NCBI RefSeq assembly: GCF_000336935.1
Contig: NZ_AOME01000002.1
Coordinates: 75,360-125,942 of the forward strand
Reading direction: 5' to 3'
Length of the DNA stretch: 50,583 bases
Source of the DNA: Halococcus salifodinae DSM 8989
GTDB taxonomy: Archaea; Halobacteriota; Halobacteria; Halobacteriales; Halococcaceae
The notes under the pieces are model-generated. The model worked only from the letters and a program-made list of their open reading frames with translations, made no database searches and had not been told where the DNA came from. The position numbers were made by a program, and so were the translations under genes. Numbering within the stretch: position 1 is the stretch's first letter; each line of letters begins with the position of its first letter. Below are positions 1 to 7,266 of this stretch, one piece after another.

Positions 1-47
1 GAGAATCTTCTGCACAAAGACTCCTCTTCCGCTTCATCTCAATCGTT

Positions 48-164
48 CTAACGACTCACCCCGACGCCGTCGGCGGATTCAATAGAGCTGTTCAACACGG
101 TCGTCTTCCCTGCGCCGAGATTGCCGCTCAGCACGGTGACGGGAATCGTCTCTCGACTCATCAT
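48..164 (-). pseudogene. Truncated CobW/G3E-family GTPase (metallochaperone) N-terminus
   Basis: A minus-strand frame opening at tandem ATGs (164 or 161) reads into a clear CobW/COG0523 start: a beta strand PVTVLSG, then the Walker A loop GNLGAGKTT and VLN. After about 25 residues the similarity ends, and a TAG at 48-50 stops the frame at 38 residues. Full family members are about 300-400 residues and carry CxCC and NKxD motifs, none of which appear. No continuation is visible in the other frames of bases 1-47. CobW proteins are GTP-driven Zn/Co metallochaperones. The gene is divergent from the oxidoreductase at 225, a pairing consistent with metal homeostasis. I read it as a degraded remnant; a frameshift at the contig edge cannot be excluded. 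Confidence 0.7.
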
Positions 165-224: not shown

Positions 225-1346
225 ATGACCTCAGACACGATCCGTAAATATGAGTCGCTTGACGTGGCCGTAGTTGGTGCAGGAGCCGCTGGAGTCGGGA
301 TCGGAGCCGTCCTTGCCGATCTCGATATCGGCTCCTACGTCATTTTCGAGCGTGACGATGTCGGCGCGTCCTTTCGACAATGGCCAGAGGAAATGCAGTT
401 CATCACACCATCGTTTCCGAGCAACAGCTTCGGATGTCGTGATCTGAACGCCATAACCACGGACACATCACCTGCCTTCGCCCTCGATCGAGAACACCCG
501 ACCGGCGTGGAGTACGCCGAATATCTCCAAGGAGTCGCTGAGTTCCACGATCTTCCTGTCCGAACGGGTGTCGAAGTGGAGTCTCTCGAACGTCATAAGG
601 ACGGTTTCGTACTGCATACGACTTCCGGCGTCATCCACAGTCGCTTCGTCGTTTGGGCGGCTGGTCAGTTCGACCAGCCGAACGACGACCCGTTCCCTGG
701 CGCGAACTACTGTGTCCACAACTCCCGGGTGAGTTCGTGGAGTGAGTTCGCCACAGAGTGTGTCGACGATCTTGTTGTTATTATTGGTGGCTACGAGAGT
801 GGGATCGACGCGGCCCTGACGCTCGCCAACTATGGCCAGGAAGTGCTGGTCCTCGACGAAGAGGGGCCATGGCAGTTCCGGGGGCCCGACCCAAGTGAAG
901 TACTCTCCCCTCACACTAGCCAGCAGCTTCACGACGCGCTCGAAAATGGCGCATCGATCGCGCTTGGGGACGGTACTCGTGTCGAGCGTGTCGATATGAA
1001 AGACAGTACGTTCGACGTTCGTGGCAGTGACGGAGAGTTCTACACGACCCGAAACCAGCCCGTACTTGCGACGGGTTTCGAGAGGGGACTCGGACTGGTA
1101 GACGAACATTTCGATTTCGAGGACGGGTTTCCACAGATCACCGAGCACGACGAATCAGCCACGACCTTGGGACTGTTTCTCGTTGGACCCCAGGTCGCAC
1201 ACAACGGACAGCAGTTCTGCTTCATCTACAAGTTCAGACAGCGATTCGCAGTTGTCGCCGACGAAATCGCCGCTAGACTCGGCATCGATCGCTCCCCGCT
1301 CGATGTGTACCGTGAGAAAAACATGTTCCTCGAGGATCTGTCCTGA
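225..1346 (+). CDS. FAD/NAD(P)-binding oxidoreductase (flavin monooxygenase/thioredoxin-reductase fold), C-terminus possibly lost
   Basis: This 373-residue flavoprotein has an N-terminal FAD-binding Rossmann motif GAGAAG (residues 18-23). A second dinucleotide motif, GGYESG, lies near residue 190, and an ATG motif (LATGFERG) comes before the C-terminal part. The layout matches two-domain pyridine-nucleotide:disulfide-type or flavin monooxygenase-like oxidoreductases. The substrate is not evident. ATG 225 is preferred over the in-frame TTG at 216 because of the TATA position. Directly after the TGA stop (1344-1346) the same frame reads CESDMCDC before TAG, a Cys-rich tail that looks like lost coding sequence. 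The divergent CobW remnant and downstream FeoB-like gene suggest a role in metal handling; that role is inferred. Confidence 0.8.
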   Translation: MTSDTIRKYESLDVAVVGAGAAGVGIGAVLADLDIGSYVIFERDDVGASFRQWPEEMQFITPSFPSNSFGCRDLNAITTDTSPAFALDREHPTGVEYAEYLQGVAEFHDLPVRTGVEVESLERHKDGFVLHTTSGVIHSRFVVWAAGQFDQPNDDPFPGANYCVHNSRVSSWSEFATECVDDLVVIIGGYESGIDAALTLANYGQEVLVLDEEGPWQFRGPDPSEVLSPHTSQQLHDALENGASIALGDGTRVERVDMKDSTFDVRGSDGEFYTTRNQPVLATGFERGLGLVDEHFDFEDGFPQITEHDESATTLGLFLVGPQVAHNGQQFCFIYKFRQRFAVVADEIAARLGIDRSPLDVYREKNMFLEDLS

Positions 1347-1373
1347 TGTGAGTCCGACATGTGTGACTGCTAG
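1347..1373 (+). other. In-frame Cys-rich extension beyond a TGA
   Basis: Eight sense codons follow the TGA of the oxidoreductase and end at TAG 1371-1373. They encode Cys-Glu-Ser-Asp-Met-Cys-Asp-Cys. Three Cys in eight codons directly at the C-terminus resembles a metal-binding or redox tail, and TGA is one base away from a Cys codon. I read this as a nonsense change that shortened the protein. Confidence 0.45.
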
Positions 1374-1553: not shown

Positions 1554-3260
1554 ATGATTGACAGACGGTCGCCATCGAACAGTGCTCCGTCGGCAGAGAG
1601 CGAATCGAAAGAGCCCGTCGTTGTCGTCGGGAAAGAGAGCGTCGGTAAATCGGAACTCATCTCCAAGATGGCTGGCGCGTATCCGATAACGGGGAACTTT
1701 CGCGGGACGACCGTCGATGTTGAACGGTACGAATCGGATCGGTTTGTCTTCGTGGACACGCCCGGAATCCTCCTCGGGACAGATACAGAGACGACGCGGG
1801 CGGCTATCCGTGCCGTCGAGGAAACTGAGACGGTGGTACTCGTACTCCGGGCGACGAACATCGACGATGATCTCCAGGACCTTCTGCCACTGGTGCAGGG
1901 AAAACTCGGTGCGATTGCTGTCACGTTCTGGGACAAGGTGGATAACAGGAACGAAGCACGTGAGGAGCTGGACGGGCTTGCAGCCGCTCTTGGTGTACCA
2001 CTCGTCCCGGTCGACGCTCGGAACGTCTCTCGCATAGCGACAGACAGCGGCACCGGTGCCACGAGGAGCGACTACAATCAGCTCATCAGTGCGATTCAGA
2101 ATGCCGATGAGTTCCCGGGTGGAGTCGACCGACGGACAGATATTCACCTCGAACCGCCGGAGACGATCATCGAGCACCCCGTCTTCGGACCGCTCGTCAG
2201 CATACTACTTCTCCTGCTGCCCGCAGCTGTTGCAGTCCACTTCGCAAACGCTGCTGCCGCCGAACTCTCCCCTCGAGTCAGCACAGTTCTTGAACCCGTG
2301 GTTCAGTGGGCAAACAGTCTTCCGGGCCCAGTTGCAGCAGTTCTGGGTGGTGAGTACGGCCTCCTCTCGATGGGACCGTTCCTGTTCGTCTGGGCAGGAC
2401 CGACGATTCTCATCTTCGCCGTCTTCATGGCAGTCTATAAGAAGAGCGGGATCGTCACGCGGATTACTGCGTCACTCCATCCACATCTTCGACGGGTTGG
2501 TCTCACTGGACGGGACCTCGTTCGCGTCATAATGGGCTTTGGCTGTAACGTCCCAGCGGTCACCAGTACCCGCGGTTGTTCGGACTGTACGCGCCGGACG
2601 ACCGTCTCGGCCATCGGTTTCGGGTCGGCCTGTTCGTATCAGTTCCCCGCTACGCTCGCAGTGTTCGCGGCAGTCGAGATGCCGTGGCTCGTCTTCCCAT
2701 ATCTCGGTGTTCTCACGACGACGACGCTCATCTACGCACGGCTGATCGCCCCGGAGAACGCACGGACGACCTCGCTCGCCACCGGGAACCGCGCGTTCCT
2801 CCAGTGGCCGACGTGGCAGTCGGTGTGGCTCGAAACCCGAACCGTGATTCGAAGTTTCTTCGTGAAGGCGCTGCCTGTGTTCGTCGGTATCGTGTTCGTC
2901 GCATCGCTCCTCGATTATCTCGGAGCGCTCGACGTGACGGGAGACGTCCTCGCGCCGGTGATGGGGCTGTTCAATCTCCCCGGCGAGACAGCACTCGTCG
3001 TCGTTTTAGGTTCGATCCGGAAAGATGGCCTGCTGTTGTTGCAGTCGGATGGATTGAGCCCGACGCTAACGACCATGACCCCCGTTCAAGTCCTGACTGC
3101 CGTCTATCTGGCTGGAGTGTTGCTCCCCTGTCTCGTCACCGCAATCACGGTCGCGAAGGAACTTTCAGTGAACTACGCGGGGCGAATGATGCTCCGCCAA
3201 GCTACGGCTGCTGCGGGCTTCTCTCTGCTCATCGCATGGGGTGGCTCGCTTCTCGTCTGA
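1554..3260 (+). CDS. FeoB-like GTPase-coupled ferrous iron (metal) permease
   Basis: The protein has 568 residues. An N-terminal GTPase domain carries the P-loop GKESVGKS (26-33), a FeoB-like switch NFRGTTV (49-54) and G3 DTPG (68-71). Where G4 is expected it reads WDKVD (126-130), with Asp replacing the usual Asn of NKxD. The C-terminal half has about eight hydrophobic segments and the Gate/nucleoside-recognition signature GFGCNVPAVTSTR, followed by an unusual CSDC. FeoB proteins import Fe2+ across the membrane; they are usually longer (600-770 residues). The shortness, the G4 change and the extra CxxC suggest a divergent paralogue whose metal may not be iron. It is followed 3 bp later by the gene at 3264. 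Confidence 0.8.
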   Translation: MIDRRSPSNSAPSAESESKEPVVVVGKESVGKSELISKMAGAYPITGNFRGTTVDVERYESDRFVFVDTPGILLGTDTETTRAAIRAVEETETVVLVLRATNIDDDLQDLLPLVQGKLGAIAVTFWDKVDNRNEAREELDGLAAALGVPLVPVDARNVSRIATDSGTGATRSDYNQLISAIQNADEFPGGVDRRTDIHLEPPETIIEHPVFGPLVSILLLLLPAAVAVHFANAAAAELSPRVSTVLEPVVQWANSLPGPVAAVLGGEYGLLSMGPFLFVWAGPTILIFAVFMAVYKKSGIVTRITASLHPHLRRVGLTGRDLVRVIMGFGCNVPAVTSTRGCSDCTRRTTVSAIGFGSACSYQFPATLAVFAAVEMPWLVFPYLGVLTTTTLIYARLIAPENARTTSLATGNRAFLQWPTWQSVWLETRTVIRSFFVKALPVFVGIVFVASLLDYLGALDVTGDVLAPVMGLFNLPGETALVVVLGSIRKDGLLLLQSDGLSPTLTTMTPVQVLTAVYLAGVLLPCLVTAITVAKELSVNYAGRMMLRQATAAAGFSLLIAWGGSLLV

Positions 3261-3263
3261 TCG

Positions 3264-3662
3264 ATGACTGCTCGAACGATGACGCTCGCGGTCGACCTCG
3301 CCGCATTGCATCGGCTGCAGAACCCGCGAGCGGTCGTCGTCGACACGAGACAGTGGGCTCAACACGTCGGTATCGTCGCGAAGGATAGCGACGCCGCGGT
3401 AGGGTTCACCACCCGTCACGTCATCCGCCGTGACTTCCCACGAAACTCCTGTGACAGGAAGACAGCCCTGAAAAATGCACACTCACGATTCAAAACAGAT
3501 CGACACGTGTACGTCGGGGTCGAAGACAGTCGGATTCTCGCGGAAGGTTCCGAGTGGGAGTTTTTGTATGTCGAGACTGCTGCAGAGATGGCCGGGTGGC
3601 TGCTCGGAGATGATACGTGTGATGATCGAACGCTACGAGCGCGGCTTCGGAAGCTGTTCTGA
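3264..3662 (+). CDS. Conserved haloarchaeal protein of unknown function (DUF7124-like), coupled to the FeoB-like gene
   Basis: This soluble 132-residue protein starts 3 bp after the FeoB-like stop and is almost certainly cotranscribed with it. It is alpha/beta in character. Notable segments are NPRAVVVDTRQW near residue 20, TDRHVYVGVEDSRIL and WEFLYVETAAEMAGW in the second half, and a basic tail. From memory the VGxxD...GWEFL/YL...AAEMAGW pattern resembles haloarchaeal proteins annotated DUF7124; I cannot verify that. There are no membrane segments or obvious catalytic motifs. It contains two Cys but no CxxC. Its position suggests an accessory role to the permease. Confidence 0.65.
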   Translation: MTARTMTLAVDLAALHRLQNPRAVVVDTRQWAQHVGIVAKDSDAAVGFTTRHVIRRDFPRNSCDRKTALKNAHSRFKTDRHVYVGVEDSRILAEGSEWEFLYVETAAEMAGWLLGDDTCDDRTLRARLRKLF

Positions 3663-4052: not shown

Positions 4053-4490
4053 TTACGATCTGGATCTGGTGATCGTCTCTCCGATAGTGTCGATTGGTAT
4101 CAGAGAGTATTCGACGGTCAACGCTTCATCCACGGCACGGACTTTCCTGACGAACGTCGAGATGTCTTCGAGATGTCCCTCCAGCACGAACGACTCCATA
4201 CACCCACGTTTTTCACCGACGCAGTTGTGCGCGTTTGACGAGAGAAGGTCGTCGTGCTCGTGGCGGAGATCCATCATCCGCTCCTCGACCTGTGGACTGT
4301 TGTACTCGAACACGGCCGTGACCACTCCCATGAGCTCACTGTCGTCGGGGGGATCGTCCTCAAACTCTCCGAGAAGGGCCCGTGCAGCTTCGCGGACCAC
4401 CTCGCTCCGACCCGCGTAGTCGTGGTCATCGGCGAACCCATCGATCCGGTCGAGAAGCGAATCCGTCATCGAGACGCTAACGATCTCCAT
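4053..4490 (-). CDS. nikR: NikR-family ribbon-helix-helix metal-responsive repressor with altered metal site
   Basis: The 145-residue protein has an N-terminal ribbon-helix-helix DNA-binding domain ([14 protein letters not shown]...[14 protein letters not shown], residues 4-40). A C-terminal ACT-like domain (about 53-135) contains H77, H79, H88, C90 and C97 (CMESFVLEG). NikR tetramers bind Ni(II) through His76, His87, His89 and Cys95 (E. coli numbering) and repress uptake genes. Here the central H-x-H reads H-x-C (H88/C90), and the spacing to the last Cys is one residue longer. It is the last gene of a minus-strand cluster, 24 bp after the ABC ATPase, so it probably controls that importer. 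It may also control the FeoB-like system. The metal specificity is uncertain. Confidence 0.85.
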
Positions 4491-4514: not shown

Positions 4515-5363
4515 TTAAAATCGGTCGGTCGCCTCCCCGCCGATGAGTGCCCGGATGCGTTCGGTGTACTCGACGAACGAACCATCCGTTCGAGACCGCG
4601 GCCGCGAAAGATCGACATCGACGATCTCTTTCACCCGTCCAGGCTCAGGACTCATGACGACCACTCGATCACCGAGGAGGGCCGCCTCGTTGACCTCGTG
4701 GGTCACGAAGAGCGTCGTTTTTCCCGTCTCCTGCCAGATGTCGAGCAGTTCGGCGTGAAGCCGCTCGCGAGTCCGGGCGTCGACGCTTCCGAACGGTTCG
4801 TCCATCAGCAACACGTCAGGATCGACGGCAAGTGCGCGTGCTACGGCGACGCGCTGTTTCATCCCTCCACTGAGTTCCTTCGGATAGGCGTCTGCGACCC
4901 CATCGAGACCGACGAGATCGAGCATCTCATGACAGCGGTTGTCACACGCTTCTCGCGCCATCCCCTGTCGTTCGAGCCCGAAACAGACGTTCTCCTGGAC
5001 CGTGAGCCACGGAAACAAGCCGTACTCCTGAAACACCATCCCGCAGTCGGTGTCGGGACCGTCAACCGTCTCGCCGTCGATCACGACCGTTCCCGCCGTC
5101 GGTGCTTCGATCCCCGCGACCGCTCGAAGGAGCGTCGTTTTCCCACAGCCCGAGGGACCAACGAGACAGACGAACTCGCCGCTCTCGACGGTGAACTGCA
5201 CATTGGACAGCGCCTGCACCGACTGGCGCTCGGACTCGTAGCGCTTGCTCACACCATCGACGAGGATTTCTGGAGTGTGGTCGGTATCGTCCGCGTCGCC
5301 AGTGCCGTTAGCGTGGGCACCGACCCGCTCGATCGCATCGGCGCTCTCGTCTACTCGCGCCAC
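4515..5363 (-). CDS. ABC transporter ATPase, nitrate/sulfonate/taurine (SsuB/TauB) class
   Basis: The ATPase has 282 residues from GTG 5363, chosen because GGAGG lies 8 bp upstream and the reading overlaps the permease stop by 13 bp. The longer open frame to 5540 only shadows the permease. It has Walker A GPSGCGKTT, a Q-loop MVFQEYGLFPW, signature LSGGMKQR, Walker B VLLMDEPFGSVD and the H-loop VTHEVNEA. The GLFPW Q-loop and short C-terminus are typical of the SsuB/TauB/NrtD class. It energises the permease at 5351-6199 with the lipoprotein at 6196-7266. The true substrate is unknown; cotranscription with the NikR-like gene hints at a metal-linked ligand rather than sulfonate. Confidence 0.88.
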   Translation of the reverse strand: MARVDESADAIERVGAHANGTGDADDTDHTPEILVDGVSKRYESERQSVQALSNVQFTVESGEFVCLVGPSGCGKTTLLRAVAGIEAPTAGTVVIDGETVDGPDTDCGMVFQEYGLFPWLTVQENVCFGLERQGMAREACDNRCHEMLDLVGLDGVADAYPKELSGGMKQRVAVARALAVDPDVLLMDEPFGSVDARTRERLHAELLDIWQETGKTTLFVTHEVNEAALLGDRVVVMSPEPGRVKEIVDVDLSRPRSRTDGSFVEYTERIRALIGGEATDRF

Positions 5364-6199
5364 GCGAGCATCCTCCCTTCGACGCTGCGGAACGCTCCGT
5401 CGGTCACGAGATAGACGAGGCTGATCACCAGCATATACGCGACGCTTATGTCCATCGCGAGGTTGTTCGAGGCGTTGATGATCTCGTAGCCGACGCCGGG
5501 TGCGCCGAACAGCTCCGCGCCCACGACGATCATCCAGCACCGACCGATGCTCGTCCGAAAGCTCGTCAGGATCTGTGGCGCGGCACTTGGGAGGACGACG
5601 TAACGGATCATTTCAAGGTCTGCCCGAACCCCGAGGCTCGACGCGACCTCCGTGAGCTGGGTGGGAGTGCTTTCGACGCCGCTGTACGCGCCGTAGAAGT
5701 TGATCCAGAACGCGCCGATGAACACGATGAACGCCGCTCCCGTATGACCGATCCCGAACCACACGATCGCGAAGACGATCCATGCCAGCGGCGGGATCGG
5801 CCGCAGGATTCGAACTACCGGCGTCAGTGCGTCATCGAGTCGCCCGCTCCATCCGAGGGCGACACCGAGTGCGATCCCGAACGATGCCCCGATGAGCAAC
5901 CCCGGAACGTAATGGAGCAAGCTCTGGGCGAGCTTCACCACCATCCGTGCGGTCTGGATCTCAGTGCCGACCACCGGGAGCGTAAGTCTCGCACTCGTCG
6001 TGAGCTGCTCGACGAACGCGCTCGCCGCCGCCAGTGGACTCGGAAGGAGATACGCCGGTGTAACGACCGACGATGCTGCCCACCACAGCCCGAGAAATCC
6101 GATCGTTCCGAGGACTCCACGCACGATCCGACTCGCGTTCCACTCGGGAAACGTCCGTTTTCCAGTAGCCTGGTCGGTGTCACTCGTTTCGATGCTCAT
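5351..6199 (-). CDS. ABC transporter permease, SsuC/TauC class
   Basis: This 282-residue inner-membrane protein has about six hydrophobic segments. It carries the BPD_transp_1 EAA-like loop (TQLTEVASSLGVRADLEMIRYVVLPSAAPQILTSF) in the second half, the site of contact with the ATPase. N-terminal residues 1-20 are polar and cytoplasmic. The ATG at 6199 overlaps the stop of the substrate-binding protein (ATGA), and its own end overlaps the ATPase start. The three genes are therefore translationally coupled. Family and order (binding protein, permease, ATPase) fit NitT/TauT-type importers. Confidence 0.88.
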   Translation of the reverse strand: MSIETSDTDQATGKRTFPEWNASRIVRGVLGTIGFLGLWWAASSVVTPAYLLPSPLAAASAFVEQLTTSARLTLPVVGTEIQTARMVVKLAQSLLHYVPGLLIGASFGIALGVALGWSGRLDDALTPVVRILRPIPPLAWIVFAIVWFGIGHTGAAFIVFIGAFWINFYGAYSGVESTPTQLTEVASSLGVRADLEMIRYVVLPSAAPQILTSFRTSIGRCWMIVVGAELFGAPGVGYEIINASNNLAMDISVAYMLVISLVYLVTDGAFRSVEGRMLAWRE

Positions 6200-7266
6200 T
6201 GGTTCGAGACGGTATCGTAGACCTCGAAGTCGAACAGTTGGTCGGGCGAGACCACCGAATCCGTGTTTCCGACCTCTTTGACGAACTCGGCCATCGTCGC
6301 CGCCTGATCTCTGAGTTCATGTGGATCGGAGAGGAAATCGGACGCCTGGGAGTCGATCGCCTCCCGCGCCAGTTCGGTACTGACACCCGACCCGATGACC
6401 GCCGCGGCGTCTTCGGCCGCTTTCTTTGGGTTCTCGCGGAGGAACTGCGTTGCTTTGCTGTGCTGTTCGACGAACTGTTCGGCAACGCTCCCAGGGACAC
6501 TGTTCTGGACGAACGTCACGGTTACTGGGTGCCCCGGAAGGATCTCACCAGACCATGCGACCTCACCGAAGCCCTGCTCGCTCGCGATCACCGTCGCAAA
6601 CGGCTCCTGGATCATCGTCGCGTCGATCTCACCCGCCTGGATCGTCTGTGGGGCCTTCGCCGGGGACAGCTTCACCTTGTCGATCACCGACTCCATCTCA
6701 CCGAGATCGAGATCCTGCTCGATCCAGTATCGCAGGACGACGTCCGGAACGCTCCCGTCGGGTGGAACGCCGAATTTCATCTTCCTCCCGTGCTGGTTCT
6801 CGAACGCCGAGAATGCATCCCCCTGCTGGTTCGTGTACAGATCAGCGAACGCGCTCGTCGCCATCACCCGGAACCCGTTCCGGCTGTTCGCCGCCAGTAC
6901 GTTCGCCGCTTTGCCCTTGTCGACGAGCACCATCGCTGGCGTGATCCCGAACAGCGCGATATCGACCTCGTCGCTCGCGAACGCCTTGACGACGCTCGGA
7001 CCGTTCGAGAACCGTTCGACGGTCACTGCCGAGGAGATCGATTCGTAGTAGCCCTCCTCTTGCATGATGTAGTGCTGCATATTCGGGTAGATCGGCACGT
7101 AGGCGACAGTGAGCTGCCCCATATTACTCGTCGTGGCAGTAGTGTTGGTTCCTTCAGCATCGCTGCTGCCGGGATTGCCCTGGCCGACACAGCCGGCCAG
7201 TCCCACCACACTACCCGCTGCTATCCCACCTGCTGCGAGGAGCTGCCGCCGGGTGCGTTCACTCAT
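6196..7266 (-). CDS. ABC transporter substrate-binding lipoprotein, NMT1/SsuA-like
   Basis: This is a 356-residue secreted lipoprotein. The N-terminus has a twin-Arg motif (RTRRQLLAAGG), a hydrophobic stretch and the lipobox LAGC at about residue 26, then a Ser/Thr/Gly/Asn-rich linker. The mature part matches the two-lobed NMT1/SsuA fold (LTVAYVPIYPNMQHYIMQEEGYY, DEVDIALFGITPAMVL, GEIDATMIQEPFATV). These proteins bind nitrate, sulfonates, taurine, pyrimidine precursors or similar small molecules; nothing visible fixes the ligand. It is the first gene of the importer-NikR cluster and is preceded by an inverted repeat overlapping its promoter, so the regulator encoded at the end of the operon may act there. 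Confidence 0.87.
   Translation of the reverse strand: MSERTRRQLLAAGGIAAGSVVGLAGCVGQGNPGSSDAEGTNTTATTSNMGQLTVAYVPIYPNMQHYIMQEEGYYESISSAVTVERFSNGPSVVKAFASDEVDIALFGITPAMVLVDKGKAANVLAANSRNGFRVMATSAFADLYTNQQGDAFSAFENQHGRKMKFGVPPDGSVPDVVLRYWIEQDLDLGEMESVIDKVKLSPAKAPQTIQAGEIDATMIQEPFATVIASEQGFGEVAWSGEILPGHPVTVTFVQNSVPGSVAEQFVEQHSKATQFLRENPKKAAEDAAAVIGSGVSTELAREAIDSQASDFLSDPHELRDQAATMAEFVKEVGNTDSVVSPDQLFDFEVYDTVSNQ

Follow-up and report, generated by a model that had tools for sequence, protein, structure and literature searches.

In C. glutamicum the COG0523 gene cg0794 lies divergent from the oxidoreductase gene cg0795, both are repressed by Zur, and a joint metallochaperone role has been proposed for their products (PMC2823685). 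In Synechococcus 7002 an FAD-dependent oxidoreductase (G0132) is induced by zinc starvation (PMC4628125). These two oxidoreductases are possibly kin of the flavoprotein family considered here, whose Pyr_redox_3-type body is also found in plasmid-encoded oxidoreductases of Paracoccus sp. MA, Acaryochloris marina and Pantoea soli. In those three systems the protein terminates in CC...C.C, and the neighbouring genes encode CobW/ZigA, zinc ABC transporters, Fur-family repressors, FolE2, DksA, an extra CysS and a FeoB-like nucleoside-recognition protein. The neighbours recorded for bacterial homologues likewise comprise ZigA/COG0523 GTPases, the AztABC zinc transporter, Fur-family repressors, FolE2, DksA, an extra CysS and ribosomal protein paralogues. 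A homologue of the oxidoreductase is also present in about 520 plasmid records from Klebsiella and Escherichia; among the matches listed, identity is about 40% and the alignment runs through the tail region. The closest solved structure is a Staphylococcus aureus 'flavin-containing putative monooxygenase' (PDB 3d1c), with which an intact haloarchaeal relative can be aligned over the full length. Our search found no literature on this Pyr_redox_3 flavoprotein family or on its tail. A better described parallel is MerA, in which a flexible C-terminal Cys pair hands Hg2+ to the active site (PMC10587081).

Here we describe a haloarchaeal member of this family that has lost its tail. The window, a 50,583-nucleotide stretch of the Halococcus salifodinae DSM 8989 genome, encodes an oxidoreductase with 72-79% identity to its nearest haloarchaeal homologues, upstream of which a CobW/COG0523 GTPase gene is divergently oriented (Table 1). 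The body of the protein is homologous end to end with the COG0523/zinc-linked Pyr_redox_3 oxidoreductases, while the CC...C.C tail is missing from the predicted protein and a remnant persists in the DNA only. Judged from these alignments, the window oxidoreductase is a descendant of the zinc-linked CC..C.C family from which the tail has been lost. It thus differs from the Paracoccus, Acaryochloris and Pantoea systems in being tail-less and in having a disrupted CobW partner, and from 3d1c, which is bacterial and has its tail. With MerA the family shares a flavoprotein body and a terminal vicinal Cys pair (PMC10587081). Unlike MerA, it has no conserved CxxxxC or CxxC in the body, where Cys331 is the only invariant Cys, and membership of the MerA or thioredoxin-reductase families is unsupported because this redox-active pair is missing from the alignment. 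The YpdA/Bdr bacillithiol disulfide reductases belong to the same flavoprotein superfamily, although the window protein reaches 82.5 bits against a TIGR04018 cut-off of 339.9 and was not assigned to them; the match to this 316-position model ends at residue 349, before the tail. AlphaFold2 prediction for an intact relative with 20 homologues gave a mean pLDDT of 61 and values below 40 in the tail, which is too weak to place the tail.

Table 1. Features of the oxidoreductase locus, in positions of the window
Feature	Position	Strand	Remarks
Insertion-sequence (IS) end, IS in CobW	1..88	.	Full element G000:C2:74422-75358 (L077), just left of the window
CobW/COG0523 GTPase, first ~24 codons with P-loop GNLGAGKTT	89..161	-	Remaining ~400 codons left of the IS, outside the window
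Target duplication, one 11-bp copy TGTTCAACACG	89-99		Within the CobW fragment
NAD(P)/FAD-dependent oxidoreductase, 372 aa	228..1346	+	Pyr_redox_3, PF13738, E 2e-88; premature TGA end
TGA replacing the first Cys codon of the conserved tail	1344..1346	+	From homologue comparison; stop unique among 391 genomes
In-frame cysteine-tail remnant CESDMCDC, then TAG 1371-1373	1347..1373	+	Presumably untranslated
Degenerate zinc-site-defective uS14 paralogue, 61 aa	1376..1561	+	No Cys, no Pfam match
FeoB-like GTPase / nucleoside-recognition (Gate) membrane protein, 568 aa	1554..3260	+	Intact
DUF7124 protein	3264..3662	+	End of the conserved gene run

An earlier note on this DNA, made from the letters alone, had proposed that the TGA at 1344 interrupts a Cys-rich C-terminal tail that probably once began Cys-Cys. 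The reading frame, which starts at ATG 228 (TTG 216 is a possible alternative), ends in ...EKNMFLEDLS, and bases 1332-1373 read GAG GAT CTG TCC TGA TGT GAG TCC GAC ATG TGT GAC TGC TAG, in translation EDLS-stop-CESDMCDC-stop, confirming that the frame continues after the TGA as proposed. The overlapping minus-strand open reading frame at 1273-1575 is a mechanical one without support. The accompanying argument, that so many cysteines are improbable by chance, stood in part: composition alone gives at least three Cys in eight codons with P about 1e-3, but 6 of the 1274 window stops that are followed by eight sense codons also reach this number. Composition by itself is therefore only moderate, suggestive evidence for a lost Cys tail, and it is the homologues that decide.

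A scan of the genome contigs and of 391 haloarchaeal genomes returned 52 with a strong match (the source genome included), from which about 40 distinct full-length haloarchaeal homologues with a readable C-terminus were obtained. At the same codons these carry CC(E/D)P(D/E)(M/Y)CDC, typically preceded by S/E/D, the residues leading into the tail being (L/A)(S/E/D). One homologue has a single extra residue, and that of Halocatena marina is the only haloarchaeal one without the Cys pair, having Tyr-Cys instead. A CCxxxxCxC-like tail is thus present in nearly every homologue, its CC falls at exactly the codons where the original Cys-Cys start had been suggested, and none of the homologues read ends at DLS without a Cys tail. 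The bacterial proteins end similarly: SCCGENCKC in Paenibacillus, SCCDNDCIC in Acaryochloris, TCCDADKCLC in Paracoccus and CCQDDRCHC in Pantoea, all plasmid homologues, and SCCEVSCTC in S. aureus 3d1c. Because the same tail closes haloarchaeal and bacterial homologues, these comparisons indicate that it is ancient and ancestral, conserved from Bacillota, cyanobacteria and proteobacteria to the haloarchaea, with the TGA of the window lying on its first Cys codon. A single stop codon has accordingly removed the last nine residues, a tail of the CC-x4-C-x-C type, from the oxidoreductase. The remnant differs from the relatives at one further position, with Ser in place of the conserved Pro.

The genes downstream of the oxidoreductase follow the order (uS14 paralogue, FeoB-like, DUF7124) that is annotated on plasmids of Haloferax gibbonsii and Haloarcula halophila, and the neighbourhood as a whole contains the CobW/COG0523 gene (IS-disrupted), the uS14 paralogue and the FeoB-like gene. 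The window also holds a CopG/NikR-like regulator frame (4053-4490, minus strand) and an NMT1-type ABC transporter (4515-7266, minus strand); these resemble the ABC genes and nickel-responsive regulator found by the Haloferax gibbonsii module. The earlier note had described the CobW gene as truncated. Its disruption is real; the cause is an IS insertion seen from one side rather than a simple truncation. The element is ~0.94 kb long, encodes a DDE_Tnp_1 transposase, is bounded by terminal repeats GCTCTATTGAATCC and is accompanied by an 11-bp target duplication TGTTCAACACG. Beyond it the other ~400 CobW codons are free of stops; where they align with the CobW of a relative, identity is 74%. The contigs on both sides extend into the ends of the IS. 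As the joins carry single Ns with duplicated flanks, the interior of the element at this site is inferred from the scaffold. Two more near full-length copies of the IS (94% and 84% identity) and several partial ones are present in the genome.

The uS14 paralogue of the window is strongly degenerate. It is 45% identical to its counterparts, compared with at least 69% for the other full-length copies compared; it differs by 0.32-0.39 at non-synonymous sites, where the other copies differ by no more than 0.17; and, whereas a relative's copy matches Pfam Ribosomal_S14, this one does not. A canonical uS14 with CxxC...CxxC is encoded elsewhere in the same genome. The relatives' paralogues keep CRMT...CRQS (L094:9149-9334, L093:9149-9334), half of the CxxC...CxxC site, and this half-kept set of zinc-binding cysteines suggests that the paralogue of the operon is a zinc-independent replacement uS14. 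It may be the same gene as rps14b; a uS14 paralogue in about 20% of haloarchaeal genomes is listed as an open question (PMC8305020).

How far decay has gone was assessed from substitution rates. The body of the oxidoreductase gives a pairwise dN/dS of 0.09-0.125 against close relatives, within the range of a comparably distant relative, and contains no lesion besides the TGA. Since the body appears to be under strong purifying selection, the gene taken as a whole shows no obvious sign of being defunct. Rates for the FeoB-like gene and for the remainder of CobW are near those of other lineages, that of CobW being slightly raised. The suggestion that the module is decaying therefore needs qualification: with CobW split by an IS and uS14 degenerate, while the oxidoreductase body and the FeoB-like gene are still constrained, the decay is partial. 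Damage is also seen in other copies. On the Haloarcula halophila plasmid (L051/L078/L093) an in-frame TAG lies at a conserved Trp of the oxidoreductase, where no gene is annotated; in a metagenome-assembled genome (L021) TGA replaces a conserved Trp codon of the oxidoreductase; one copy (L079) has a stop within the FeoB-like gene; and in another (L081) CobW is shortened and a deletion affects FeoB-DUF7124. Given these independent lesions, the module looks facultative and often damaged in haloarchaea.

The eight codons past the TGA offer about 21 sites, and against most close relatives the window shows a single non-synonymous change there. Taking 4.75 events as the Poisson upper bound, selection on the tail could have been absent for only a minor share of the divergence, a rough estimate as synonymous sites are near saturation; for the same reason, and because pairwise rates average over the whole lineage, the stop is poorly dated. 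So few changes imply either that the stop is recent or that the tail is still translated, and the recent stop is favoured because the tests for recoding were negative. In the source genome no SepSecS was found, matches to SelD were far below the cut-off, and all matches to tRNA-Sec were below the cut-off and proved to be ordinary Ser, Arg, Lys, His and Thr tRNAs. All 48 tRNA matches in the genome were typed by ARAGORN (five with its intron option), and no anticodon that reads TGA was among them. An Rfam scan of the window gave nothing at the gathering cut-off and no known recoding element. TGA is moreover an ordinary stop here: it closes the neighbouring FeoB-like gene (3258-3260), and many relatives use it behind the tail as the stop of this oxidoreductase gene. 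A degenerate pattern search found a TGA-bearing tail in the source genome only, one of the 391 haloarchaeal genomes.

Taken together, the results make it likely that the Cys tail of the oxidoreductase was removed by a recent nonsense mutation and that the module around it, of the zinc-starvation type, is partly decaying. Two observations fit this reading less comfortably: the strong purifying selection on the body (pairwise omega about 0.1) with no other lesion, and the three cysteines kept in the remnant, as continued translation would also explain. Were the TGA recoded, by selenocysteine, a suppressor or readthrough, the full tail would be made, possibly with a Sec-Cys start; the position of the TGA, exactly on a redox-type Cys of the terminal pair, and the preserved codons downstream would suit such a scheme. 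Selenocysteine and a suppressor tRNA were nevertheless rejected, as the Sec machinery is missing, no suppressor anticodon exists among the typed tRNAs and the TGA is not conserved in relatives; the gene falls outside the selenoprotein class on both machinery and conservation. Recoding in any form is thus very improbable, in line with the earlier ranking of readthrough as the lesser alternative. The same low expectation applies to partial readthrough or decoding that would yield short and Cys-tailed forms of the flavoprotein, which would represent unrecognized recoding in a haloarchaeon without known Sec machinery.

The main residual doubt about the nonsense mutation, a small one, is an error in a draft assembly with adapter and scaffolding artefacts, in which case the true genome would have a Cys codon and a full tail. 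The assembly is a draft of 109 contigs, an Illumina adapter remains at a contig end of the same genome beside the canonical uS14 gene (L144:8-21, G000:C79 end), in the window's own contig the IS is joined through single Ns flanked by duplicated sequence, and the sequence on both sides of the TGA resembles a functional frame. Yet a lone substitution inside unique sequence is atypical of adapter or repeat problems, no adapter was found within the window, and the change from Pro to Ser in the conserved tail and the degenerate uS14 paralogue are consistent with real relaxation; we consider an error unlikely. A tolerated or adaptive truncation, in which the tail-less enzyme works and selection keeps the short form, for example after loss of the CobW partner, would account for a body omega like that of relatives and for the intact FeoB-like gene, and the genome does hold a second, intact CobW family gene (a 416-aa open frame, 45% identical to the module CobW of a relative). 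Against this, almost all homologues, bacterial and archaeal, have kept the tail, which speaks for its importance in normal function, and selection for a short form is undemonstrable from one genome. This explanation too seems rather improbable, and a recent nonsense mutation remains the reading that we follow here.

The module would then comprise a CobW/COG0523 GTPase, the divergent oxidoreductase, a zinc-site-defective uS14 paralogue, a FeoB-like transporter and the DUF7124 protein. By analogy with the bacterial systems and from its neighbours, we infer a role in zinc starvation; a ZnuABC-type transporter is encoded close to one haloarchaeal copy (L079), and archaea sequenced by 2009 were without a recognizable Zur (PMC2770081). 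Metals other than zinc are possible, given the CbiM/CbiQ genes in the window's own contig and the NikBC genes and nickel-responsive regulator near the module in relatives. Context likewise suggests a metal or redox role for the tail: the ancestral tail may have been a flexible thiol arm that binds or relays metal (probably Zn2+) or is redox-cycled by the flavin, possibly as a partner of the CobW GTPase. The disruption of CobW probably eased the constraint on the tail, and a nonsense substitution on the Halococcus salifodinae lineage would recently have removed the nine residues. Without its tail, the body may remain a folded enzyme that turns over NAD(P)H, presumably without delivery to the target of the tail.

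As a lesion, the TGA is ordinary decay of the pseudogene type. Less ordinary is the presence of a deeply conserved CC...C.C tail on a flavoprotein that travels with COG0523 GTPases and zinc-independent paralogues, and a natural tail-less version with a disrupted CobW offers a ready comparison for the function of this tail. The conserved tail and the link to uS14 give the locus a modest interest: in zinc shortage, the operon suggests a likely reason why some haloarchaea possess a second, hitherto unexplained uS14 gene.
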